Assembly (NCBI RefSeq): GCF_006711645.1 | Contig: NZ_CP041247.1 | Location: 2,666,001-2,730,000, forward strand | Direction: 5' to 3' | DNA length: 64,000 nt | Source: Klebsiella electrica | GTDB lineage: Bacteria; Pseudomonadota; Gammaproteobacteria; Enterobacterales; Enterobacteriaceae | Part shown: piece after piece, positions 17,275 through 63,353 of the stretch | Numbering within the stretch: the first letter of the stretch is position 1 | How the letters are laid out: every line of letters starts with the position of its first letter | Position numbers and translations under genes: made by a program | The notes under the pieces: model-generated | What the model was told of the DNA's origin: nothing | Seen by the model: the letters and a program-made list of their open reading frames with translations, nothing else | Database searches by the model: none

Positions 17275-20200
17275 TTACGCTTTCTCGATGTTGACCAGAA
17301 ACGCTTTGTACTCCGGCGTTTGCGAATTGGAATCGCCGACGTTTGGCGTCAGGGTGTTGGCGATGTAGCCCTTCCGCGCCACCCCTTCAAAGCCCCAGTG
17401 CAGCGGGATGCCGACGGTTTCTACCTGCTGGCCGTGAACGTTGAGGGTCCGCAGACGGCGGGTCACCACCGCCACCGCGCGGATAAAGCCGCGCTGGCTG
17501 CTCACCGTCACCCGATCGCCGTTGGCAATCCCTTTCGCCTGCGCCAGACCTTCGCTGATTTCCACAAACTGTTCCGGCTGTGCAATGGCGTTGAGCCGCG
17601 CATGCTTGGTCCAGGTATGGAAATGCTCGGTCAGACGATAGGTGGTCCCGACGTACGGGAACTTATCTTTCTTCCCTAAGCGCAGGGCGTCGTCTTCATA
17701 CAGACGCACCACCGGACTGGAGATCACGTTCGGGTGCAGCGGGTTGGTACCCAGCGGCGTTTCCATCGGCTCGTAATGTTCCGGGAACGGACCTTCCGCC
17801 AGCTTATCGAGGGCAAACAGACGCCCCAGCCCCTCCGGCTGCATGATAAACGGCCCGGTGTTGCTGCCCGGCGCGGCGGTATTGAAGTCAGGGATATCGT
17901 TCCCCGTCCACTTCGTTCCGTTCCACTGGATCAGCATCCGTTTCGCATCCCACGGTTTGCCGTTAATATCCGCCGAAGCGCGGTTATACAGCACGCGGCG
18001 GTTGAGCGGCCACGCCCAGGCCCAGCCCAGCGTATTGCCCAGCCCTGACGGATCGGCGTTATCGCGGTTGGCCATCTGGTTACCCTGCTCCGTCCAGCTC
18101 CCGGCGTAGATCCAGCAGGACGATGCCGTGGTGCCGTCATCGCGCAGCAGCGCGAAGCTGCTCAACAGCTGGCCTTTTTTCGCCAGCAGGGCACCGTTGC
18201 CGTCATACAGATCCGCCAGCGCATAGCCGTTGTTCTCTTTCGCCACCTCTTCCGATTCCGGATGATCCGGCTGTTTGTAGCTCCAGCTCATCTTCAGCAG
18301 CGGCTCGGCGCCTTTCCCACCTTCGGTGCGATACATTTCGCGCAGGCGATGGTAAATGCCGGCCAGAATTTCGCCGTCGTTACGCGCTTCGCCCGGCGCA
18401 TCCTGGCCTTTCCAGTGCCATTGCAGCCAGCGTCCGGAGTTGGCAATCGACCCGTCCTCTTCCGCAAAGCAGGTGGACGGCAGACGGAACACTTCGGTCT
18501 GAATCGCCGCCGGGTCGACATCGTTCGACTCGCCGTGGTTTTGCCAGAAGGTCGAGGTTTCGGTCACCAGCGGGTCGATAACCACCATGTACTTAAGCTT
18601 GCTCAGGCTGCGGACCACCTTGTTTTTGTCCGGGAACGAGGCCACCGGGTTAAAGCCCTGGCAGATATAGCCCGTGACCTGACCTTTATCCATCATGTTG
18701 AAATACTTGATGACGTCGTAAGCCTGGTCCCACTTCGGCAGCCAGTTAAAGCCCCAGTCGTTCTCTTTCTGCGCCGCATCGCCGTAAAACGCTTTCATCA
18801 GGCTGACCGCAAACTTCGGATAGTTGCTCCAGTAGTTCACCTGGTCGGCCAGCGTGGCCTTCGGCGTGTTGGCGTTCAGCCAGGTCTGCCAGTCGCTCTG
18901 TTTTTCTGATGGCAGCGTCAGATAACCCGGCAGGCTGGTAGAGAGCAGACCTAAGTCGGTTAAGCCCTGAATGTTGGAGTGACCGCGCAGGGCATTCACC
19001 CCACCGCCCGCCATCCCCATGTTGCCGAGCAGCAGTTGGATCATCGCCATGGTGCGGATGTTCTGCGCCCCGACGGTATGCTGCGTCCAGCCCAATGCGT
19101 ACAGGAAAGTGGTGGTCCGGTCCGCGGCGCTGGTCGACGCCAGCACTTCGCACACTTTCAGGAAGTCGGCTTTCGGCGTCCCGCAGATGTTCTCCACCAC
19201 CTCCGGCGTGTAGCGCGAGACATGCTGCTTCAGCAGGTTCCATACGCAGCGCGGATGTTGCAGGGTTTCATCGCGCAGCGCATAGCCGTTTTCGTCAAAC
19301 TGATAGTTCCACGATGTTTTGTCATACCGCCGTTTTTCAGCGTCATAGCCGCTGAACAAGCCATCTTCGAAGGCAAAATCGTCGCGTACCAGCAGGTTGG
19401 CGTTGGTGTAGTGTTTAACGTACTGCGCATTGATTTTGTTGTTTTCAATCAGGTACAGCAGCACCCCCGACAGGAAGGTAATGTCGGTGCCGGAACGAAT
19501 CGGCGCATAGATATCGGCCACCGAAGCCGTGCGCGTAAAGCGCGGGTCGACGACGATAAGCAGAGCATCGTTGTTGTTTTTCGCCTCCATCACCCAGCGG
19601 AATCCCACCGGATGGGCTTCAGCGGCGTTGCCGCCCATCACCATCACGACATTAGCGTTTTTGATATCAACCCAGTGGTTGGTCATCGCACCGCGACCAA
19701 ATGTTGGAGCAAGACTTGCTACCGTTGGTCCGTGTCAGACGCGCGCCTGGTTATCCACTGCCAGCATGCCGAGCGAGCGCGCAAATTTCTGCGTCAGCAT
19801 CCCGGTTTCGTTACTGGCCGCCGAGGCGCACAGCATCCCGGTTGAAAGCCAGCGGTTAACCACGGTGCCCTGCTCGTTTTTCTCAATAAAGTTGGCATCA
19901 CGGTCGGCTTTCATCAGCCTGGCGATCCGGTTGAAGGCGTCGTCCCAGGAGATACGCTGCCATTTGTCAGACCCCGGCGCGCGGTATTCCGGGTAGCGCA
20001 GTCGGTTGTCGCTATGAACATAATCCAGCAGCCCCGCGCCTTTCGGGCATAAAGCGCCCCGGCTGACCGGATGATCGGGATCCCCTTCAATATGATAGAT
20101 GGCTTCTTTCGCGTTCTTCGCGCCGTCGCCGAGGCTATACATTAATAGCCCGCAGCCCACGGAGCAGTATGTGCAGGTGTTGCGGATCTCTTTGGCGCGC

Positions 20201-36603: not shown

Positions 36604-37221
36604 TTAAATCAACTCGTTGTCACGCAGTACCCGCTGCAGCTCCGGGCGCTGGCAGACCTTGTCAGCCACGGCGATAAACTTCGGCGTATGTTCGGCAAAC
36701 CACTCCCGCCGCGGGCCCCAGCGGCACATCGTCGCGATATAACAATCCAGCAGGGTTATCTCCGCCCCCAGCGCATAAGGCGCCGCCGCCAGCTGCTGCT
36801 CCAGCCACAGATACAGCGATTGACGATAGCGGATGCAGTTTTCCCGCAGCTGTTCCGCCGCGTCGGCGGCCCAGCGCTGCGGATAATCGGCATAGGTAAA
36901 GGTGGGATAAACATTGGCCACCAGCCAGATCAACAGACGCTGAAACTGATGGCGCTGCGCTGTGCCCGGCGCAGGCGCCAGATCCGGACGGCTATCGAGG
37001 ATCATCAGGGCGATAGCGGCGGATTCGGTCATCACGCTGCCGTCCGCCAGTCGTAAAGTGGGAACCTGACACAACGGGTTTATCTGCATCAGACTGTCGC
37101 GCTGCGGGCCAGGCTGGTCGAAACCCGCCACGTCGACGAAATGGTAAGGAATATTGGCCAGGGTCAGCATCAGCTCGCTAATCGCCGATCCCCAGCCGGG
37201 AACGCCATAGACGGTAATCAT
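36604..37221 (-). CDS. yncG: Glutathione S-transferase-family protein YncG
   Basis: 205 residues with a thioredoxin-like N-domain ([39 protein letters not shown]) and an alpha-helical C-domain, colinear with E. coli YncG. It likely uses glutathione, but the substrate is unknown. Two ATGs are adjacent; the second (37221) has a six-base spacing to GGAGG and matches the E. coli start, so it is used. Confidence 0.92.
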
Positions 37222-37437
37222 CATCTGCCTCCACGATAAAGCTTAAGTTTAGGCAGAAAACCGGGGTGACAGGCAGGAGGTATCGGGCAGCAGTACGGCG
37301 CAAGATGCTACAGAACAGGCGTTATCCGCGATGATCTTTGACCGGTAGCACTACGTTTAGCGTAGCGACGCCCTGCTTTTCAATACCTCATACCTTACCG
37401 TTTATCCGCAGAATACTCGCGGCGTTGCAAGCATTAT

Positions 37438-38094
37438 TCATGGCTGACGATTGAGAAAGGGTGAAAATGTCTTCCAGAATTTTTTGGCACACTGAATGTC
37501 ATATAAGCTGTTAACCACGGCACTGACAATCAGAATAAACATCGCCAGGTAAACAAGAAATAAAACGACAAAGCAGGCTACCGCGGCCGCGCCTGACATT
37601 TCGGCTACTACATCGGGCACCGACATAAAGAATCCGTATATGATAGCGGCAATCATCAGCCCGCCGAAAATAACTATCTCCCGGCGCGCCTTTTTCCTTT
37701 TACTGGACGTTTGCGTCACGCCTGAATCCGTAACATTCAGCAGCCTCGACATCCGAAGAAAGCTATTCAGGGTTGGCTCATTGAAATCGATATTGTTGCT
37801 GGCAATATACTCAAGAATTTTATGACTGATGGTCACCGGATATCTTATGCCGATACCTTCATATAACGCCTTGATAGCCAGTAAATCAAACGGGGTAAGA
37901 TCGTTTTTATTTTTCAATTGATTAATACGGCGAAACGTTGCCAGGCGCTTTTCCACATTCACTTTATCAAACTGACTGTCACGATGAAGCTTCCTGCCTT
38001 CTCCCCAGCGATTATAAACAGCACGAATAAATGCGACAACAGCAGGAAACACCACGCCCGATAAGGGTATAATAACTTCTGATAATATATTCAC
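37438..38094 (-). CDS. Membrane protein of unknown function
   Basis: 218 residues: one N-terminal hydrophobic helix (ILSEVIIPLSGVVFPAVVAF), a basic soluble middle region of about 110 residues (KKARREIVIFGG end), then two C-terminal helices (IVIFGGLMIAAIIYGFFMSV and CFVVLFLVYLAMFILIVSAV). Codon and base use is clearly more AT-rich than in the flanking genes, suggesting acquisition. No ortholog recognised. A perfect FNR-type box lies about 90 bases upstream. The middle region has no motif I can name. Confidence 0.7.
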   Translation of the reverse strand: MNILSEVIIPLSGVVFPAVVAFIRAVYNRWGEGRKLHRDSQFDKVNVEKRLATFRRINQLKNKNDLTPFDLLAIKALYEGIGIRYPVTISHKILEYIASNNIDFNEPTLNSFLRMSRLLNVTDSGVTQTSSKRKKARREIVIFGGLMIAAIIYGFFMSVPDVVAEMSGAAAVACFVVLFLVYLAMFILIVSAVVNSLYDIQCAKKFWKTFSPFLNRQP

Positions 38095-38453: not shown

Positions 38454-38492
38454 GCTGTTTCGCCCTGTACTCCGGCGAAACAGCGTTTTTTT
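38454..38492 (+). terminator. Strong plus-strand terminator
   Basis: GCTGTTTCGCC and GGCGAAACAGC form a perfect 11-bp stem with a 9-base loop, followed by G and seven T. The T-run is on the plus strand, although the adjacent gene ends on the minus strand, so something must be transcribed rightwards through 38100-38450, unless the hairpin serves mainly as a 3' stabiliser for the minus-strand operon. Confidence 0.8.
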
Positions 38493-39384
38493 AGTAGGTA
38501 ATCCCCGGCGGATTCACCTGCGATTGTGCCACCGCCTCTCCCTGTTCGCCCCAGCGCTCCAGCACCTGCTGGTACTCCCCGCGCGCAATCGCGCCATTGA
38601 GCGCCGCCTGCAGCGCATACACCAGCCCGCTGCCCTTTTTGGTGGTGGTGGCGACCCACGCTTTTTTCGGCCCCAGCCCGACCACTTTGGTTGTCCCGCT
38701 CAGCGCCGCTTTATACGCTGCCGCAGACTGCGGGCCAAAAAAGACGTCGGCGCGTCCTGACTGGATATACAGGTTGCCGGAGGCGTCATCGGTCAAATAG
38801 ATCGGCAACGCCGGTTGCCGCCCCGCCGCGTTGTTTTCCTCGTTCCAGCCCAGCAAAATACGCTCCTGATTCGTGCCGGATCCCACGATCACCTTACGCC
38901 CGGCCAGATCCGCCGCGCCGCTGATTTTCTCGATGGCGCTGGTGGATTTAACGGAAAATGCCAGCGAATCGACGCGATAGGTGGCGAAATCGAATTTCTC
39001 TTTGCGCTGTTCGGTGACGGCAATATTGACCAGCGCCACGTCATAGCGCCCGGAGGTGATCCCCAGCGGCCAGTCTTCCCATGCCGTCGGCACCAGCCGG
39101 AGCTTCAGCCCTAAACTGCCCGCCAGCAGACGGGCAATATCCGGGTCGCTACCGATGCGCGTCCGGTTGTCGCTGGCCAGCAGCGCCAGCGGCGGTGAGT
39201 TAAGCGCAGAAATCGCCACCGTCAGCGTACCGGGCTCGACAAAACGATAGCCGGGCGGGATCCTGGCGATCGCCGCGTTGTCAACCGTTACCGGCAGCGG
39301 CTGTTCATTCGCCCGGAGATCAATTTTCGCCTGCGCCTGCGCAGAGAGGGCGCCCAGCGCCATAACAACTAACCATTTTCTCAT
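38491..39384 (-). CDS. Polar amino-acid ABC binding protein 2 of the sulfur-salvage-like cluster
   Basis: 297-residue periplasmic SBP_bac_3 protein, signal peptide to AQA (about residue 17). Motifs: GTLTVAISALNSPPLALLA, GSDPDIARLLAGSLGLKLRL, PTAWEDWPLGITSGRYDVAL. It resembles the other binding protein of the cluster (41601) in layout and motif order: an N-terminal extension of about 35 residues before the ligand domain, WEDWPLG, and VGSGTNQE. They are probably paralogs with different ligand preference. Starts in ATGA overlap with the ATPase gene. Last gene of the operon. Confidence 0.88.
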   Translation of the reverse strand: MRKWLVVMALGALSAQAQAKIDLRANEQPLPVTVDNAAIARIPPGYRFVEPGTLTVAISALNSPPLALLASDNRTRIGSDPDIARLLAGSLGLKLRLVPTAWEDWPLGITSGRYDVALVNIAVTEQRKEKFDFATYRVDSLAFSVKSTSAIEKISGAADLAGRKVIVGSGTNQERILLGWNEENNAAGRQPALPIYLTDDASGNLYIQSGRADVFFGPQSAAAYKAALSGTTKVVGLGPKKAWVATTTKKGSGLVYALQAALNGAIARGEYQQVLERWGEQGEAVAQSQVNPPGITY

Positions 39385-40157
39385 GCCAGCACCTTTGATA
39401 AAAATTGCCGCGTACGCTGATGCTGCGGATGATTAAGCACCGCGTCGCTGCTGCCCTGCTCAATAATTTTCCCCTCGACCATAAACACCACCTGATCGGC
39501 CACTTCGCGGGCAAAACCAATCTCATGCGTCACCACCACCAGCGTAGTGCCGGAGCGGGCCAGCTTTTTAATCACATCGAGCACTTCGCCCACCAGTTCC
39601 GGGTCCAGCGCCGATGTGGGTTCATCAAACAACAGCACTCGCGGCTTGAGGGCCAGCGCCCTGGCGATAGCAATACGCTGCTGCTGGCCGCCGGAGAGAT
39701 GGCGCGACCAGGCATCGGCTTTGTGGCGCAGCCCCACCACTTCCAGGAGTTCGTAAGCGTTGGCGATGGCCTCTTTGCGGCTCGTCTGCCGGTGGGCAAT
39801 CGGCGCTTCAATCAGGTTTTCCAGCACCGTCAGATGCGGGAACAGATTGAAGTTCTGAAAGACATAGCCCACGTTAACGCGCTGACGCAGAATCTCCCTC
39901 TCCTTCAGCTCATAGAGCTTATCGCCCTGACGTCGATAGCCGATGTAGTCGCCATCAATCTGAATAAACCCTTCATCTACCCGTTCCAGATGGTTTATGG
40001 CGCGCAGCAGGGTTGATTTCCCCGAACCGGACGGCCCGAGGATCACCGTCACCGTGCCGGGAGGGATCTCCAGAGAGACATCATCCAGCGCTGTATGGCG
40101 GCCAAAATACTTGCTGACGCCGGTAATCGAGATATGGCCGTTACGAGAGTTGGGCAT
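39381..40157 (-). CDS. Polar amino-acid ABC transporter ATPase
   Basis: 258 residues of the GlnQ/HisP/TcyN class: Walker A GPSGSGKST, Q-loop VFQNFNLFPHLTVLEN, signature LSGGQQQR, Walker B VLLFDEPTSALD, switch THEIGFAREVADQ. ATG 40157 follows AGGAGACCATTC and lies 17 bases inside the permease gene, so translation is coupled. In E. coli and Bacillus the closest functional relatives carry cystine, glutamine or S-substituted cysteines. Confidence 0.92.
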   Translation of the reverse strand: MPNSRNGHISITGVSKYFGRHTALDDVSLEIPPGTVTVILGPSGSGKSTLLRAINHLERVDEGFIQIDGDYIGYRRQGDKLYELKEREILRQRVNVGYVFQNFNLFPHLTVLENLIEAPIAHRQTSRKEAIANAYELLEVVGLRHKADAWSRHLSGGQQQRIAIARALALKPRVLLFDEPTSALDPELVGEVLDVIKKLARSGTTLVVVTHEIGFAREVADQVVFMVEGKIIEQGSSDAVLNHPQHQRTRQFLSKVLA

Positions 40158-41070
40158 GAATGGTCTCCTGCGATTTCTGCGGTTGACGAGAGGATTCATC
40201 GGCGCGCGCGCGGCGCGGCGAGTTGACCGCCGAACGGCGTTCGCTGCGTGCCAGGGCGCGTTCCACCAGATATTGAATCAGCGACAGGACGCTGGTGATC
40301 GCCAGATACCAGACGGCCCCGACCATCAACAGCGGGATCACCTCCTGGGTCCGGTTGTAAATCATCTGGATGGTGTAAAACAGCTCGGGCATCGCCAGCA
40401 CATAAACCATCGCGGTCCCTTTGGCGAGGCTGATAATTTCATTGAAACCCGCAGGCAAAATCGTGCGCAGCGCCTGAGGCAGAATAATACGCAGCGTACG
40501 CCGCCACGCCGGCAGCCCCAGCGCAGCGGCAGCCTCATACTGACCGTGGTCGACGCCGAGGAAGCCGCCGCGAATGATCTCCGCGGTATAGGCGCTCTGC
40601 ACCAGCGTCAGCCCCACGACCGCCGTGGAAAACTGCCCCAGCACGTTGATGGTCTGATAATTACCCCAGCTGATCCCGGTAAACGGAATACCGAGCGACA
40701 GCGTGTCGTAGAGATAGGAGAAGTTGTAGAGGATGATCAGCACCACAATCAGCGGCAGCGAGCGGAACAGCCAGATATAGCCCCAGGCCAGGCTGCTCAG
40801 CAGCCATGAAGACGAGAGCCTGGCCAGCGCCAGCAGACCGCCGAGTATCACGCTCAGTACGGTACCCAGCAGCGTCAGCAGCAGCGTTTGTCCCAGTCCT
40901 TCCAGGATAACCGGGGCAAAGAACCAGCGAGCGAAAACCGCCCACTCCCAACGCGGGTTAAAGGCCACCGACTGCACGACGACCGCCAACACCAGTAGCG
41001 CCGCTACCGCGCCAACGGCGCGCAGCGGATAGCGCGCCGGGACCACTTTAATCGTTTCCGTTCTGTTCAT
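40141..41070 (-). CDS. Polar amino-acid ABC transporter permease
   Basis: 309 residues of the His/Glu/Gln/Arg/opine permease family. The core has five helices with the conserved loop EAAAALGLPAWRRTLRIILP and FRSLPLIVVLIIL. Unusually there is an N-terminal extra helix (VGAVAALLVLAVVVQSVAF) and a 35-residue basic C-terminal tail. Only one permease gene is present, so the pore is probably a homodimer. It starts nine bases after the GNAT gene. Confidence 0.9.
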   Translation of the reverse strand: MNRTETIKVVPARYPLRAVGAVAALLVLAVVVQSVAFNPRWEWAVFARWFFAPVILEGLGQTLLLTLLGTVLSVILGGLLALARLSSSWLLSSLAWGYIWLFRSLPLIVVLIILYNFSYLYDTLSLGIPFTGISWGNYQTINVLGQFSTAVVGLTLVQSAYTAEIIRGGFLGVDHGQYEAAAALGLPAWRRTLRIILPQALRTILPAGFNEIISLAKGTAMVYVLAMPELFYTIQMIYNRTQEVIPLLMVGAVWYLAITSVLSLIQYLVERALARSERRSAVNSPRRARADESSRQPQKSQETIHAQLS

Positions 41071-41079
41071 GTTCTCTCC

Positions 41080-41589
41080 TCAGGCGCTGTGGCTTAAAAT
41101 GCTTATCGCCAGCGCTTTAGTGAAGCGCAGTCGCCCATCAAACGGCGGCTGGCTGTACTCCTCCGGGTTGCGCGCCAGGTCAAACTGCGCATCGTAGCCC
41201 TGGCTCAGATAGAGCCTGACCGCTTCCGGCTGGCGAAAGCCGGTCGTCAGGTAGATATGGCTGTAGCCTGCCAGCACCGCCCGCCGCTCCAGTTCCTGGA
41301 CCACCTTCGCCGCCAGCCCCTGCTGGCGCAGGGCCGGATGGGTCCAGATACGTTTGATTTCCGCCGTGCGGCTATCCTTGGGCTTATAGGCGCCGGTGGC
41401 GATAATCTCGCCGTCACGTTCAAGGACGATAAACAGCCCCTGCGGCGGCAGATACCACTCGGTCAGCTCGACCTCCGCATCGCGAGAAAAATAGTCGCCA
41501 TAGCGCGACGCGTATTCGGCGAACAGGCCGTGAATAATTGGCTGGAGTTCCGGCGCTTCAGGTGAGATATCGCGGAATGCTGCGCTCAT
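41080..41589 (-). CDS. GNAT N-acetyltransferase of the sulfur-salvage-like cluster
   Basis: 169 residues with the acetyl-CoA motif RIWTHPALRQQGLAAKVVQE and the closing strand YSHIYLTTGFRQPEAVRLYL. Encoded between a binding protein and the permease of an amino-acid importer and together with an M20 deacylase, it fits the role of Bacillus YxeL/SnaA-type enzymes, which N-acetylate S-substituted cysteines before oxidative cleavage. The substrate is inferred from context only. Confidence 0.88.
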   Translation of the reverse strand: MSAAFRDISPEAPELQPIIHGLFAEYASRYGDYFSRDAEVELTEWYLPPQGLFIVLERDGEIIATGAYKPKDSRTAEIKRIWTHPALRQQGLAAKVVQELERRAVLAGYSHIYLTTGFRQPEAVRLYLSQGYDAQFDLARNPEEYSQPPFDGRLRFTKALAISILSHSA

Positions 41590-41600
41590 ATTGCCTCCTG

Positions 41601-42533
41601 TTAATCGCCGAGCCCGGCCGGGTTAATTTCAGATTGCGGGATGCTCTCCACGCTTTCCCCCCAGCGGGTAAGCACTTTGGCATAGTCGCCATTCTGAATG
41701 GTGCCGTTCAACGCGGTCTGCACAGCCTCAACCAACCCGCTGCCTTTTTTCAGCGTGACCGCAATGTGCGCCGCTTTCGGCCAGCCGCCATCCACGCTGC
41801 CCACCAGTTTGGTCTTCCCGGTCAGCGCGGCCTTCCAGGCGCCGATCACGTTCGGGCCAAAAAAGGCGTCGGCGCGACCGGACTGAATGGCCAGCGTCTG
41901 GGCGGCATCATCTTTGGTGTAGACCGGCGTAAAGGGCTTCAGCCCCTTTTTCAGGTTTTCCGCATTCCACGCCAGCAGAATGGCTTCCTGGTTGGTGCCG
42001 GAGCCGACGATAATCCGCAGCCCGGCAATCTCTTGCGCCTGGTCAATTTTATTCAGCGGGCTGGTACTCTTGACGTAGAAACCCAGCGAGTCCTTACGAT
42101 AGGTGGCGAAGTCGAACTTCTCTTTGCGCTCTTTGGTGACGGTAATATTGCTGATCGCGGCATCATATTTGCCGGAGGAGACGCCCAGCGGCCAGTCCTC
42201 CCAGGAGGTCGGTACGACGTTCAGCTCCAGTCCCAGACTGTCGGCGACCAGGCGGGCGATATCGACTTCGCTGCCAAGCAAGGTCTTGTTATCGTCCGAG
42301 AACACGGTCAGCGGCGGCGAGTTCAGTGCCGCGACCGCCACGGTAAATTTCCCCGGCACCGCAAAGTGATAATTGGCCGGCAACCGGGCGATAGCCTGCG
42401 GATTTTTTGCCGTGTGCACCGGCGCTTTATTGGCCTCCACGCTCACGCCGGTCCCGTTGATATTGACGTCCTGCGCCCATAATGGCGCGCTGAAACCCAG
42501 CGCAAAGGCCAGTAAAAGTGACTTTTTCTGCAT
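41601..42533 (-). CDS. Polar amino-acid ABC binding protein 1 of the cluster
   Basis: 310 residues, signal peptide cleaved after LWA (about residue 20). An SBP_bac_3 domain follows an N-terminal extension: GKFTVAVAALNSPPLTVFSD, GSEVDIARLVADSLGLELNV, PTSWEDWPLGVSSGKYDAAI, VGSGTNQEAILLAWNAENLK. Same plan as the paralog at 38491. Two binding proteins with one permease and ATPase broaden ligand range, as with TcyJ/TcyK in Bacillus. It lies 18 bases after the monooxygenase gene. Confidence 0.9.
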   Translation of the reverse strand: MQKKSLLLAFALGFSAPLWAQDVNINGTGVSVEANKAPVHTAKNPQAIARLPANYHFAVPGKFTVAVAALNSPPLTVFSDDNKTLLGSEVDIARLVADSLGLELNVVPTSWEDWPLGVSSGKYDAAISNITVTKERKEKFDFATYRKDSLGFYVKSTSPLNKIDQAQEIAGLRIIVGSGTNQEAILLAWNAENLKKGLKPFTPVYTKDDAAQTLAIQSGRADAFFGPNVIGAWKAALTGKTKLVGSVDGGWPKAAHIAVTLKKGSGLVEAVQTALNGTIQNGDYAKVLTRWGESVESIPQSEINPAGLGD

Positions 42534-42551
42534 AGCAAACGTTCTCTGTTG

Positions 42552-43868
42552 TTATTGTTGTTGGAATTGATTAACCGGCAACGTCAGCCCCAGGCTTTCA
42601 CGCAGCGTCGTTCCCGGATACTCCCGGCGGAACAGCCCGCGCGCTTGCAAAAGCGGCACCACCCGATCGACAAAGCGCGGGAAGGTATCCGGTGTGCCGC
42701 CCTGAATGATAAAACCGTCGGCCCCCCGCTGTTCGAACCACTGCTGCAAGCCATCGGCAACCTCCTGCGGCGTACCGGCGAACAGCGGGCGCGGACTGGC
42801 GGCTTCCAGCGCGACCTGACGCAGGGTCAGACCGCGTTCGCGGGCGTTGCGCTTAATTTCATCGGTGGTACTGCGGAAGCTGTTTTTCCCCAGATCGCCG
42901 ATATCGGGGAACGGTTCATCCAGCGGGTACTGCGCAAAGTCGTGGTGTTCGAAATAACGCCCGAGATAGTTGAGGGCATCCTCAATCGATACCAGCGCGG
43001 CGGTGGTCTGGTATTGCTGTTCGACATCGTCGGCATCGTCACCGACAATCACGCTGACGCCCTGGAAAATATGTAATTGGTTATCCTGACGACCACAGGC
43101 CGCCAGCTGATTTTTCACATCGCGATAAAACGCCTGCGCTTCCGCCAGCGATGCCTGGTGGGTAAAAATGGCATCGGCATGGCGGGCCGCCAGTTTTTTG
43201 CCGTCATCGGAGGCCCCGGCCTGAAAAATAATCGGCCGCCCCTGCGGCGTGCGGGAAATATTCAGCGGGCCGGCAACCTGGAAAAAATCACCGCGATGGT
43301 CGAGGGTGTGCAGCTTATTTTTATCGAAGAACTGTCCGCTGGCTTTATTACGGACAAAGGCATCCTCCTCCCAGGAATCCCATAAGCCTTTCACCACCTG
43401 TAAATATTCATCGGCAATGCGGTAGCGCAGCGCGTGGTCGGGATGCTGCGCGCGCGAAAAGTTCTTTGCCGAACCTTCCAGCGGTGAGGTCACCACGTTC
43501 CAGCCCGCGCGTCCCTGGCTCAGATGGTCAAGGCTGGCAAACTGCCTCGCGGTGGTGAAAGGCTCGCTGTAGGAGGTGGATAAGGTGCCCACCAGCCCGA
43601 GATTGCGGGTGACCGCCGCCAGCGTCGAGAGCACGGTCAGCGGTTCAAAACGGTTTAAAAAATGCGGGATAGATTTCTTATTAATATATAAACCATCGGC
43701 GACAAATAAAAAGTCCAGCTTGCCCTCTTCGGCTTTTAAGGCCGTCTGTTTAACGAACTCAAAATTAATACTGGCATCCGCCTGGGCGGCCGGATGACGC
43801 CAGGCGGACATATTTCCCGATGCGCCGTGTAATATTGTGCCCAGACGCAATTGTCGTTTTTCAGACAT
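42552..43868 (-). CDS. FMN-dependent monooxygenase, NtaA/SnaA/DmoA family
   Basis: 438 residues, full length for this two-component flavin monooxygenase family: [20 protein letters not shown] start, [52 protein letters not shown] and [14 protein letters not shown]. Members use reduced FMN and O2; Bacillus YxeK and CmoJ cleave the C-S bond of N-acetylated S-substituted cysteines. Its partners here (GNAT, M20 deacylase, amino-acid importer) argue for that role, but sulfonate or nitrilotriacetate-type substrates cannot be excluded. It starts 52 bases after the M20 gene. Confidence 0.9.
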
Positions 43869-43920
43869 AGCAACCCCTTTCCTTGTCGAAAATGAAAACA
43901 GAAACCCGAACGCTCAGGCG

Positions 43921-45042
43921 TCAGATCTGGCGTAAAGCCTGCTCAGCCAGCGCCGCAAAATAGCGGGCCGCCGGGGCGATTAAGCTGTCGTCCGGATTGT
44001 AGGCCGGGTGGTGAAGGCCAAATTCGCTGGCGCTGCCGATACTGACAAACGCGCCGGGAATATGCTGTAGATAGACGGCGAAATCCTCGCCGCCCATATG
44101 CAGATCCGCATGCCGGGTACGGTAGCCGGAGTGGGCGGCAACATCGCCGGCAAATGTCGCCCAGCGCGAGTCATTGACCAACGCCGTCGGTCCGGCGTAC
44201 CAGAACACATCAATCTGGGCACCAAAAGCACTGGCAAAACCGGCGGCAATGTCGCTGACCCGCGCCTTGACCCGCTGCTGCACCTCGCTGCTGTGGGTAC
44301 GCAAGGTCCCTTCCAGCTCCACGCTTTCCGGCAGTACGTTCCAGGTATTGCCGCCCTGAATCCGCGTTACGCTCAGGACCACCGAATCGAGGGTATTCAC
44401 CTCGCGGCTGGCCACGCTCTGCAGGACGGTGACCAGTTGACTGGCCAGCAAAATCGCATCTTTGCCTTCGTGCGGCCGGGCGGCATGCGCCCCTTTGCCG
44501 GTGACCTTAAAGACGAAGCGATCGACGTTGGCGTAAAACGCCCCGCCGCGGGTAGCAAACTCGCCCACCGGCAGGCCGGGTTCATTATGCATACCGAAGA
44601 TAGCCGCGACCCCCTCCAGCGCCCCGGCGCGAATCAGGGTTTTCGCCCCGCCAAAATTCTCTTCCGCCGGCTGGAACAGAATCCGTACCCGTCCAGGGAG
44701 CGTCGCTTCGCGTTCTTTGAGCAGCAGCGCCGCCCCCAGCATCACGCTGGTGTGAATATCATGGCCGCAGGCGTGCATCACCCCTTCGTATTGCGAGCGA
44801 TACGGCAGGCCGGTAGTCTCGGCAATCGGCAGCGCATCGATATCCGCGCGCAGGGCGATAATCTTCTCGCCGCTGCCCACTTCGACGACCAGCCCGGTTG
44901 TCAGCTCATAGGGCAGCACCCGCAGGCCGCCGCTTTCAAGCCAGTCGCGAATGCGCGCCGTCGTCGCCACCTCCTGCAACGAGAGTTCCGGATATTGATG
45001 CAGCTCGCGCCGCCAGCTAATCAGCTGTTGTTCAAAGCTCAT
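43921..45042 (-). CDS. M20-family N-acyl amino-acid amidohydrolase
   Basis: 373 residues of the M20D amidohydrolase group (hippurate hydrolase, YxeP, SndA type). Metal ligands are seen in HACGHDIHTSVMLGAALLLK, FQPAEENFGGAKTL and FGMHNEPGLPVG, and the lid domain in GKGAHAARPHEGKDAI. It would remove the N-acetyl group after sulfur-carbon cleavage. It starts in ATGA overlap with the upstream monooxygenase. Confidence 0.93.
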   Translation of the reverse strand: MSFEQQLISWRRELHQYPELSLQEVATTARIRDWLESGGLRVLPYELTTGLVVEVGSGEKIIALRADIDALPIAETTGLPYRSQYEGVMHACGHDIHTSVMLGAALLLKEREATLPGRVRILFQPAEENFGGAKTLIRAGALEGVAAIFGMHNEPGLPVGEFATRGGAFYANVDRFVFKVTGKGAHAARPHEGKDAILLASQLVTVLQSVASREVNTLDSVVLSVTRIQGGNTWNVLPESVELEGTLRTHSSEVQQRVKARVSDIAAGFASAFGAQIDVFWYAGPTALVNDSRWATFAGDVAAHSGYRTRHADLHMGGEDFAVYLQHIPGAFVSIGSASEFGLHHPAYNPDDSLIAPAARYFAALAEQALRQI

Positions 45043-46040
45043 GGCAACACCTCCGCGCCGTGATGGGCCTGAGCCAGCAGGCGGAGTGAGTCGAGGCGCG
45101 CCTGCCCTTCGCTGACCGGCGTGTCGATGATAAATTCGTCAATATGCCAGGCAGCATGCAGGGCGTCGAGCTGCGCTTTTACCTCATCAGCGGTTCCCGC
45201 CAGCAGCGAGGCATCGCGACGGGCGATGCGCACCGGCGGACTTCCGGCCTGGCGGGCAAAGGCGGCCGCCTGCGCTTCGCTCGCCACCGTCACCCGCTGG
45301 CCGTTTTCCAGTTCAACGCCCCAGACTTCAACCTGTTGCGCCAGCTCAAGCGCCGTGGCGCGCTCTTCGGCGACGATGACCTGAATCGCGACGATGGCGT
45401 CGCGGCGACTCAGCGCCCGCCAGCGGGTTAACACCTCGCGCAGCAGCGTTTTGTCGCCGTTAAGATGGGCGGCGAAAACAAAATTCCAGTCCAGCCGGGC
45501 GGCGAGCTCAACGCTCTCCAGGCTGGCGCCGAGCAGAAATCCGTCGGCGCGGCGCGGCGGGATTGGCGTGGCGCGCAGGCTCTCTTCCCCCTCGGCATCG
45601 GTGAGCGACAGCCAGTTATCCAGCTGCGCGAGGCTGTCGGCAAATGTTCCTTTCTCCGCCGGATGAACCCCCAGTTGCAGCGCCCGCGTTGACAGCGGCA
45701 GGCCGCCCGGCGCTTTCCCGACGCCAAGATCGACACGTCCAGGCGCTATCGAGGCCAGCAGATTGAAGTTTTCCGCCACTTTGTACGGGCTGTAGTGTTG
45801 CAGCATGACGCCGCCGGATCCGACGCGAATCTGCCGGGTCTGGCCGAGGATCCAGGCGATCACCACTTCCGGCGACGGGCTGGCTAATTGATCGGTGTTG
45901 TGGTGCTCGGCAATCCAGAAGCGATGATAGCCCCAGGCTTCCGCCTGTTGCGCCAACGTTAATGTACGCGTCAGCGCCTGAGCGGCCGTTTCTCCCGCCG
46001 CCAGCGGACTTTTATCCAGGATACTGATTCGATAAGACAT
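45039..46040 (-). CDS. Luciferase-like flavin monooxygenase, first gene of the cluster
   Basis: 333 residues of the LLM superfamily, YhbW/YtmO-like group: LAQQAEAWGYHRFWIAEHHN, SPSPEVVIAWILGQTRQIRV, GSGGVMLQHYSPYKVAENFN, LLASIAPGRVDLGVGKAPGG. Bacillus ytm/snd operons carry a similar second monooxygenase beside the NtaA-type one, so two oxygenases with different S-substituent preferences are plausible. The start at 46040 follows TACGAGCCTGCGAA. Upstream 105 bases must hold the operon promoter. Confidence 0.88.
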   Translation of the reverse strand: MSYRISILDKSPLAAGETAAQALTRTLTLAQQAEAWGYHRFWIAEHHNTDQLASPSPEVVIAWILGQTRQIRVGSGGVMLQHYSPYKVAENFNLLASIAPGRVDLGVGKAPGGLPLSTRALQLGVHPAEKGTFADSLAQLDNWLSLTDAEGEESLRATPIPPRRADGFLLGASLESVELAARLDWNFVFAAHLNGDKTLLREVLTRWRALSRRDAIVAIQVIVAEERATALELAQQVEVWGVELENGQRVTVASEAQAAAFARQAGSPPVRIARRDASLLAGTADEVKAQLDALHAAWHIDEFIIDTPVSEGQARLDSLRLLAQAHHGAEVLP

Positions 46041-46145
46041 TTCGCAGGCTCGTATTAATTAACATACCTGCATTATTAGAATCTGCTGCGGCCACTGAGA
46101 AACAATTTATTTACATGTACTCTGCCGGAAAATAGATATACGCCG

Positions 46146-46691
46146 TTAACGCGCCGCCACCTGCCGCTGTAGCTGGCGGATAAAATCCTCGGTTTGCCGC
46201 GGATGGCGCAGGCGTACAAAGCGAATGTGCCGGTACGCCGGGTCAGTCATATCAGACTGATAACGCTGGCGATTATTCTTCCAGGTTTTGATGGTCCAGC
46301 CGATAATCGAGTCGCGGCTGAAGAAGGCGCGACGGAAGCTTTCACAGTTGCCGGTTCCCGGCCACAGCTCCTGACCGCGGCTGGCCCGGGAGATGGCCCG
46401 ACAGACGGCCTGTCGCAGGGTTCGGGCAAAACTGTAATCCACCCACACCACCAGATCGACGTCGCGCCACTTCACCGGGCGACTGCGGTTGTAATTGCCG
46501 TCCAGCACCCAGCCAGGAGCCTCGATGGCAGCGGCCACGTCGGCGAAGAACGTCTCATCCGGCGCGCCCTGCCAGTCCGCGCGCCAGTAAAGCCTGTCCA
46601 TCTCAATACAGGGAACGGACAGGATCTGCGCGAGCCGTCGCGCCAGCGTCGATTTGCCGACGCCGCTGGTACCCACTACGTTGATATTCAT
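46146..46691 (-). CDS. P-loop kinase-like protein (adenylate/shikimate kinase fold)
   Basis: 181 residues. P-loop GTSGVGKST at residues 8-16, then PCIEMDRLYWRADWQG and GWVLDGNYNRSRPVKWRDVD, VVWVDYSFARTLRQAV: the AAA/FlaR-like putative adenylate kinase family of bacteria. Cytoplasmic NTP-dependent phosphotransfer to an unknown small molecule is likely. It is a single gene upstream of the sulfur cluster in the same direction, with no obvious link to it. Confidence 0.8.
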   Translation of the reverse strand: MNINVVGTSGVGKSTLARRLAQILSVPCIEMDRLYWRADWQGAPDETFFADVAAAIEAPGWVLDGNYNRSRPVKWRDVDLVVWVDYSFARTLRQAVCRAISRASRGQELWPGTGNCESFRRAFFSRDSIIGWTIKTWKNNRQRYQSDMTDPAYRHIRFVRLRHPRQTEDFIRQLQRQVAAR

Positions 46692-62985: not shown

Positions 62986-63353
62986 TTGTCACTTGCTGGC
63001 AGCGACAGATATTAATCAGGGTTATGTCTCTGTTTGTCCGCGCTGAACGGCATGTTACGCGCCCCACCCGGCGCTTATCTCCGGCACTCATTCTGGCTTA
63101 GCTCTTGAAGGGGCATAAGAATCCTCTCATATTTCGCCGCCTCTGTTTTAGCAATAACTGCCATTGAGACTATTAGCAGGCTAATGTATAAAAAATGTGA
63201 TTATCTCATCCGTAACAAGCTTGCGACCGCGCCACTACCTTCGCCGAGGCATAGCCCCATATTCACAGGAGACGCTTGCAGGTTGCACCCGGCAATAGCG
63301 GACGTAAATAATCAGGGCTGGAATTGACGGAGCCTCTCGAGTGAATTAACTGA
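62986..63353. other. Intergenic stretch, nothing recognised
   Basis: About 370 bases between the terminator and the omptin gene end. One GC-rich palindromic patch (CGCGCCCCACCCGGCGC near 63058-63074) breaks otherwise mixed sequence. No ORF, RNA gene or clear promoter seen. Confidence 0.45.

Follow-up and report, generated by a model that had tools for sequence, protein, structure and literature searches.

Gene content and order in Klebsiella electrica point to a sna/cmo-type operon for the salvage of S-alkylated cysteine

An operon of eight minus-strand genes in Klebsiella electrica very probably encodes an enterobacterial form of the sna/cmo-type (ytm) salvage pathway for S-alkylated cysteine, as judged by sequence comparison. 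The operon lies in a 64,000-nucleotide stretch of contig NZ_CP041247.1 (assembly GCF_006711645.1, positions 2,666,001 to 2,730,000), referred to here as the window. Its gene content and protein families, the closeness of its CmoJ-like enzyme to YtnJ and its conserved gene order were read directly. A first-pass annotation of the same DNA had proposed that the genes salvage S-substituted cysteines, and this is supported: among solved structures, the two key enzymes match Bacillus subtilis YtnJ and YxeP best. This kind of pathway is already known from Bacillus; what is new here is a Pro/Thr/Ala signature in the binding proteins, a glutathione S-transferase (GST) companion gene and a conserved promoter block.

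Protein families in the window were assigned from Pfam and NCBIfam matches, and the key enzymes were also matched against solved structures. The open reading frame (ORF) coordinates bear out the first-pass description of the layout: the eight ORFs occupy 46040 to 38491 on the minus strand, no gap exceeds 52 bases and neighbouring ORFs overlap at three of the junctions. In order, the genes are as follows.

45039..46040, minus strand: CmoO-like luciferase-like monooxygenase (LLM), a flavin enzyme of the MsnO8 family (TIGR03558, 331.7 bits); predicted N-acetyl-S-alkylcysteine sulfoxidase
43921..45042, minus strand: M20 amidohydrolase, YxeP(ScmP)-like (matches YxeP, 1ysj); predicted N-acetylcysteine deacetylase
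42552..43868, minus strand: CmoJ(YtnJ)-like flavin mononucleotide (FMN) monooxygenase of the NtaA/DmoA family (TIGR03860, 546.1); predicted to cleave the C–S bond of the N-acetyl sulfoxide
41601..42533, minus strand: SBP1, a family-3 solute-binding protein (SBP; SBP_bac_3) with Arg136 kept, Thr131, and Pro227 at the amine-binding Asp position
41080..41589, minus strand: GNAT N-acetyltransferase, a family-level match; putative S-alkylcysteine N-acetyltransferase (SnaA role)
40141..41070, minus strand: single amino-acid-type ATP-binding cassette (ABC) permease; best named family the cystine permease PRK15100 (132 bits, cut-off 300)
39381..40199, minus strand: ABC ATPase whose closest named family is TcyN (303 bits, cut-off 406)
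38491..39384, minus strand: SBP2 (SBP_bac_3), a paralogue of SBP1 with Arg127 kept, Ala at the second amine contact, and Pro218 at the Asp position

The successive junctions are an overlap of 4 bases, gaps of 52, 18, 11 and 9 bases, and overlaps of 59 and 4 bases; taking the internal Met-15 as the ATPase start would shorten the 59-base overlap between permease and ATPase to 17.

The CmoJ-like enzyme has as its best solved-structure match B. subtilis YtnJ, which we take to be the same protein as CmoJ, with 569.9 bits and 56% identity over 428 residues; the paralogous monooxygenase at 1.81 Mb in the same genome is only 42.6% identical to YtnJ. The next structures are 3sdo (497.7 bits), 7e36 (310.5 bits), DszA (301.4 bits), DmoA (249.2 bits) and EDTA monooxygenase (205.2 bits). 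The breadth of TIGR03860, together with the name nitrilotriacetate monooxygenase that its depositors gave to 3sdo, the second match, could suggest that the substrates are other organosulfur compounds or chelators (sulfonates, dimethyl sulfide, dibenzothiophene-like compounds, nitrilotriacetate or EDTA). We consider this extremely unlikely: DszA, DmoA and the EDTA monooxygenase score far below YtnJ, and such pathways are not known to involve a GNAT, an M20 enzyme or an amino-acid-type ABC transporter. The first-pass annotation had held that its reading would fall if a sulfonate or nitrilotriacetate oxygenase proved to be the closest characterized homologue; among solved structures that place is taken by YtnJ. 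Some database records name these genes 'alkane 1-monooxygenase' or 'nitrilotriacetate monooxygenase family protein', and such family-level names would be sharpened by the present assignment.

The LLM enzyme upstream misses the cut-off of the YhbW equivalog (PRK10508; 180 versus 540 bits). By its subfamily, its position and its 43% identity to the CmoO-like genes in the CmoJ clusters of Niallia and Paenibacillus, it matches a CmoO-type enzyme. The M20 enzyme aligns best with YxeP (369.5 bits, 47% identity), and the two have in common the stretches HACGHD, PAEE, GMHN and HHPA, presumably the metal ligands. Over 156 residues the GNAT shares 54% identity with its counterpart in a Rhizobium CmoO–CmoJ cluster, and it is 49% identical to that of a Paraburkholderia cluster.

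One operon thus holds a CmoJ-type FMN monooxygenase, a predicted CmoO-type LLM sulfoxidase, an N-acetyltransferase (at family level) with an M20 deacetylase, and an ABC importer of the cystine/polar amino-acid type with one permease and two SBPs. The B. subtilis sna/cmo operon likewise has an N-acetyltransferase, CmoO and CmoJ, a deacetylase and an amino-acid ABC importer with two binding proteins, which we take to be TcyJ and TcyK (structure entry 2o1m names YtmK an extracellular-binding protein). The first-pass annotation had singled out the two oxygenases and the two binding proteins as distinguishing features, but the B. subtilis operon has both as well. The differences lie elsewhere: the window has one permease where the B. 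subtilis operon has two (TcyL and TcyM), the gene order is not the same, the window has a GST companion, and its two SBPs are only weakly similar to YtmK (29.5 and 22.8 bits).

In the pathway described by Hazra and Begley (PMC10863075), CmoO is a stereospecific sulfoxidase and CmoJ cleaves the sulfoxide, both after N-acetylation and before deacetylation. Because CmoO sulfoxidizes and CmoJ cleaves there, the most natural reading of the two window oxygenases is that they act one after the other in a single pathway. From these parallels we infer every catalytic step, the substrates and the regulation of the operon. SBP1 and SBP2 would bring S-alkylcysteines, or their N-acetyl forms or sulfoxides, to the one permease/ATPase, and the GNAT would acetylate those that have a free amino group. 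The CmoO-like enzyme would then convert the thioether into the sulfoxide using reduced flavin and O2, and the CmoJ-like enzyme would cleave the C–S bond of the sulfoxide to give an aldehyde and N-acetylcysteine sulfenic acid, the latter then being reduced. Finally, the M20 enzyme would strip the acetyl group and the cysteine would enter metabolism; deacetylation of N-acetylcysteine is ascribed to ScmP, YhaA and YtnL in PMC12757645. Family searches found no flavin reductase among the eight genes, so the reduced flavin must come from elsewhere, probably from a reductase encoded outside the operon, and the first-pass description of the cluster as 'complete' was too strong.

The first-pass annotation had included S-(2-succino)cysteine (2SC) among the substrates. 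On that reading the operon would break down 2SC as yxe/scm operons do, and the NtaA/DmoA-like enzyme would fill the role of YxeK. The 47% identity of the M20 enzyme to YxeP fits it, as do an ABC importer of the same broad type and the sequence of acetylation, cleavage and deacetylation, which the two pathways have in common (PMC9706529). In yxe/scm operons, however, cleavage is by YxeK or, in a variant, by 2SL, whereas in the window it would consist of sulfoxidation plus the action of CmoJ: the monooxygenase is YtnJ-like (the comparison being with YtnJ, not YxeK) and has a CmoO-like partner beside it. Family searches of the eight genes found no 2SL-type lyase and no MmgE/PrpD (YxeQ-type) gene, the latter being a listed component of the yxe/scm operon that its definition does not require, according to PMC9706529. 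Both genes are present in a separate cluster of the same genome (G000:C1:1800941-1808284, the same as L109:3942-11285), which holds a lyase of the adenylosuccinate-lyase superfamily (2SL-type), a GNAT, an M20 enzyme, MmgE/PrpD, an SBP, a permease and an ATPase. We therefore regard 2SC breakdown by the window operon as very unlikely, and salvage of the sna/cmo (ytm) type as most likely.

The lyase cluster corresponds to the yxe loci that have 2SL in place of yxeK (described in PMC9706529, which also covers the 2SL of Dickeya dadantii), and is a better candidate for the use of 2SC than the window operon. Its lyase is 73% identical to a protein of D. undicola, 75% to one of Pectobacterium aroidearum and 95% to one of K. 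michiganensis. In Raoultella planticola, R. ornithinolytica and K. pneumoniae, all of which carry a cluster like that of the window, lyase matches reach only 33–34%. A window-type CmoJ locus is present in all six of these species, the D. undicola stretch being without an M20 gene. The two clusters are therefore separable. Beside the lyase cluster lie an iron alcohol dehydrogenase-like (Fe-ADH-like) gene, another NtaA/DmoA-family monooxygenase and an aminotransferase. A third NtaA/DmoA-family monooxygenase of this genome, at G000:C1:933137-934420, scores 575.8 bits, over the curated cut-off, and weaker matches to the family lie just upstream (930611-931489).

A scan of one genome per species gave 310 stretches encoding a relative of the monooxygenase, and the best 80 of these were taken as relatives of the window. 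In these 80 loci the monooxygenase is 77–99% identical to that of the window (98–99% in R. ornithinolytica and R. planticola), every record except one has an enterobacterial title, and gene order was judged from tblastn positions. The order CmoO–M20–CmoJ–SBP1–GNAT–permease–ATPase is kept in 68 of the 80, and in 51 of the 80 SBP2 follows as well; with seven and eight genes kept in order to this extent, the operon is not a chance arrangement. A separate copy of SBP2 was not seen in 20 loci, where the query falls on the SBP1 gene; these include truncated contigs (for example L036 and L061). The single locus without a CmoO match is also a truncated contig, and the CmoO-like gene is inverted in six loci, five from Pectobacterium and one from Dickeya. 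One record, titled Chryseobacterium sp. 18061 (L020), carries an enterobacterial cluster with a CmoJ of 88% identity and is probably mislabelled or mixed.

Two further samples were drawn, one of 198 genomes from the family of the window and one of 274 genomes from its class. In the family sample 40 genomes have a CmoJ match of at least 68% identity (one of them partial), and for 37 of these a CmoO-like match (again one of them partial) is no more than 10 kb away. These CmoO–CmoJ equivalents, in 40 of the 198 family genomes, occur in Klebsiella, Citrobacter, Enterobacter, Pantoea and other plant-associated genera, and Gram-negative hosts in which the pathway could be studied therefore exist; PMC10863075, which takes B. 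subtilis as its model, describes the CmoO–CmoJ pathway as belonging to soil bacteria. In the class sample only the window's own genome gave a monooxygenase match at E ≤ 1e-150. More distant clusters were also found. Two Rhizobium plasmids (L158 and L159) have the order CmoO–CmoJ–M20–GNAT–permease/ATPase–SBP–SBP–LLM–DsbA; they have the enzyme set in common with the window, but the permease and ATPase are in one gene, extra LLM and DsbA-like genes are present, and an MsuE FMN reductase lies just downstream in one of them (L159, R. ruizarguesonis). In Paraburkholderia a CmoO-like gene (47% to the window CmoO) and a CmoJ-like gene are neighbours, with a GNAT and a permease/ATPase. CmoO-like (43%) and CmoJ-like genes adjoin in Niallia, and a cluster in Paenibacillus comprises a CmoO-like gene (43%), a GNAT, an SBP, two permeases, an ATPase, an M20 gene and two CmoJ-like genes. 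In P. aroidearum the M20 and CmoJ genes are separated by a RutF-like flavin reductase gene (PF01613).

Several observations weigh against the sna/cmo assignment. Counterparts of CmoI, RibR and YtnM, all part of the B. subtilis operon, are missing from the eight genes, and an M20 match is absent from the stretch in six of the 80 relatives. The CmoO assignment draws on CmoO-like relatives rather than on B. subtilis CmoO itself. The window M20 enzyme is not closer to YxeP than is the M20 enzyme of the lyase cluster (334 versus 352 bits by BLASTP). The GNAT is matched at family level, and the cluster GNATs of Niallia and Paenibacillus resemble that of the lyase cluster, not that of the window. All transporter parts score under every named cystine-transporter cut-off.

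The binding proteins may say more about the ligands. In LAO and HisJ, Arg77 binds the carboxylate of the ligand, and Ser72 and Asp161 hold its α-amine (PMC5740067 and PMC4192606). NocT and OccJ of Agrobacterium, family-3 SBPs that bind N-substituted amino acids, have Ser or Asn in place of Asp161, according to the same papers. SBP1 and SBP2 likewise keep the Arg and have lost the Asp, as expected of SBPs for N-substituted amino acids, but the replacement is Pro. The pattern is invariant among the orthologues: Pro at the Asp161 position and the carboxylate Arg are present in 80 of 80 SBP1 and 60 of 60 SBP2 sequences, with Thr (80 of 80) and Ala (60 of 60), respectively, at the Ser72 position. 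Among the family-3 SBPs of the same genome (28 hits, of which 25 were aligned and three dropped), Arg is found in all; the Asp161 position is Asp in 15, Ser, Ile, Met, Val or Gly in seven, and Pro in SBP1, SBP2 and the SBP of the lyase cluster. In the Rhizobium pairs, which also lack the amine-binding Asp and are split Thr/Gly where the window pair is split Thr/Ala, Thr occurs with Val or Pro and Gly with Pro; the first SBP of these clusters differs from that of the window in carrying Val, not Pro. The Asp is likewise missing from two SBPs read from Bacillota clusters, in which Glu occupies the Ser72 position.

The combination of Pro with Thr or Ala suggests N-blocked ligands such as mercapturates, and the SBPs of the proteobacterial clusters may bind N-blocked S-conjugates. 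Within the sna/cmo assignment, and overlapping it as a refinement, the importer could mainly take N-acylated S-conjugates including mercapturates, the oxygenases acting directly on imported N-acetyl-S-alkylcysteines. We put this forward tentatively, as a doubtful possibility. Besides the Pro in both SBPs, it is favoured by gene neighbourhood: in the same genome an M20 gene lies within 7 kb of eight of the ten Asp-lacking family-3 SBPs versus two of the 15 others, and Asp-lacking SBPs near M20 genes may mark importers of N-acylated amino acids. This linkage was, however, not significant in one Rhizobium plasmid, the cluster keeps a GNAT gene and the lyase-cluster SBP carries the same Pro. The argument from one residue is also weakened because the equivalent Asn202 of OccJ is not critical, Asp placed there leaving ligand recognition unchanged (PMC5740067). 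The AlphaFold2 model of SBP1 (mean predicted local distance difference test score, pLDDT, of 85.2) adopts the expected fold, but its structural neighbours give no indication of which ligand is bound, and a FliY docking model argues for caution about N-blocked ligands. If the amine is blocked on import, which we think possible but improbable, SBP2 (Ala and Pro) might take N-acylated conjugates and SBP1 (Thr and Pro) a different or less blocked set. The signature gives a direct and cheap test of whether bacteria import mercapturates, the excreted end products of glutathione detoxification; if they do, then with the downstream GST this would be bacterial harvesting of sulfur from animal or plant detoxification products.

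Two further features flank the operon.

46072..46140, minus strand: conserved promoter region of the operon, an AT-rich block with a −35-like TTCTCA and a −10-like AATAAT
36604..37224, minus strand: glutathione S-transferase, downstream companion

A homologue of the GST gene lies downstream in 31 of 79 relatives, on the same strand in all 31 and no more than 150 bp away in 12. PMC10863075 gives S-alkyl glutathione as the main source of S-alkylcysteines; the GST companion fits such an origin, and some substrates may begin as glutathione conjugates. Between SBP2 and the GST gene lies a 218-residue ORF (37438-38094, minus strand) with no Pfam or NCBIfam match; it has a 99% match in R. ornithinolytica (L009) and none in the R. 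planticola stretch (L010).

Upstream of the CmoO gene the block at about 46140-46072 was followed in two hand-chosen alignments. It is strongly conserved in a set of 11, comprising the window and ten loci with Raoultella, Klebsiella or Enterobacter titles, and less strictly in a set of 12, comprising the window, K. pneumoniae and ten loci from other genera; it thus persists across genera with different upstream genes. A sigma-70-like site at 46101-46072 is weak evidence alone, since five such sites were found in the region versus a shuffle mean of 3.5. The gene immediately upstream (46146-46691, minus strand) encodes a small P-loop-like protein with weak 'DNA topology modulation protein' matches. 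In many other loci it is elsewhere or was not seen, with no upstream copy in, for example, L018, L038 and L063. Because the block is conserved in genomes without this gene upstream, the operon most likely starts at CmoO and does not include it.

Elsewhere in the window, Rfam matches were obtained to SECIS_3 (19682-19740, minus strand, 84.3 bits), a selenocysteine insertion element that suggests a selenoprotein gene there, and to rydB RNA (63054-63114, minus strand, 79.5 bits).

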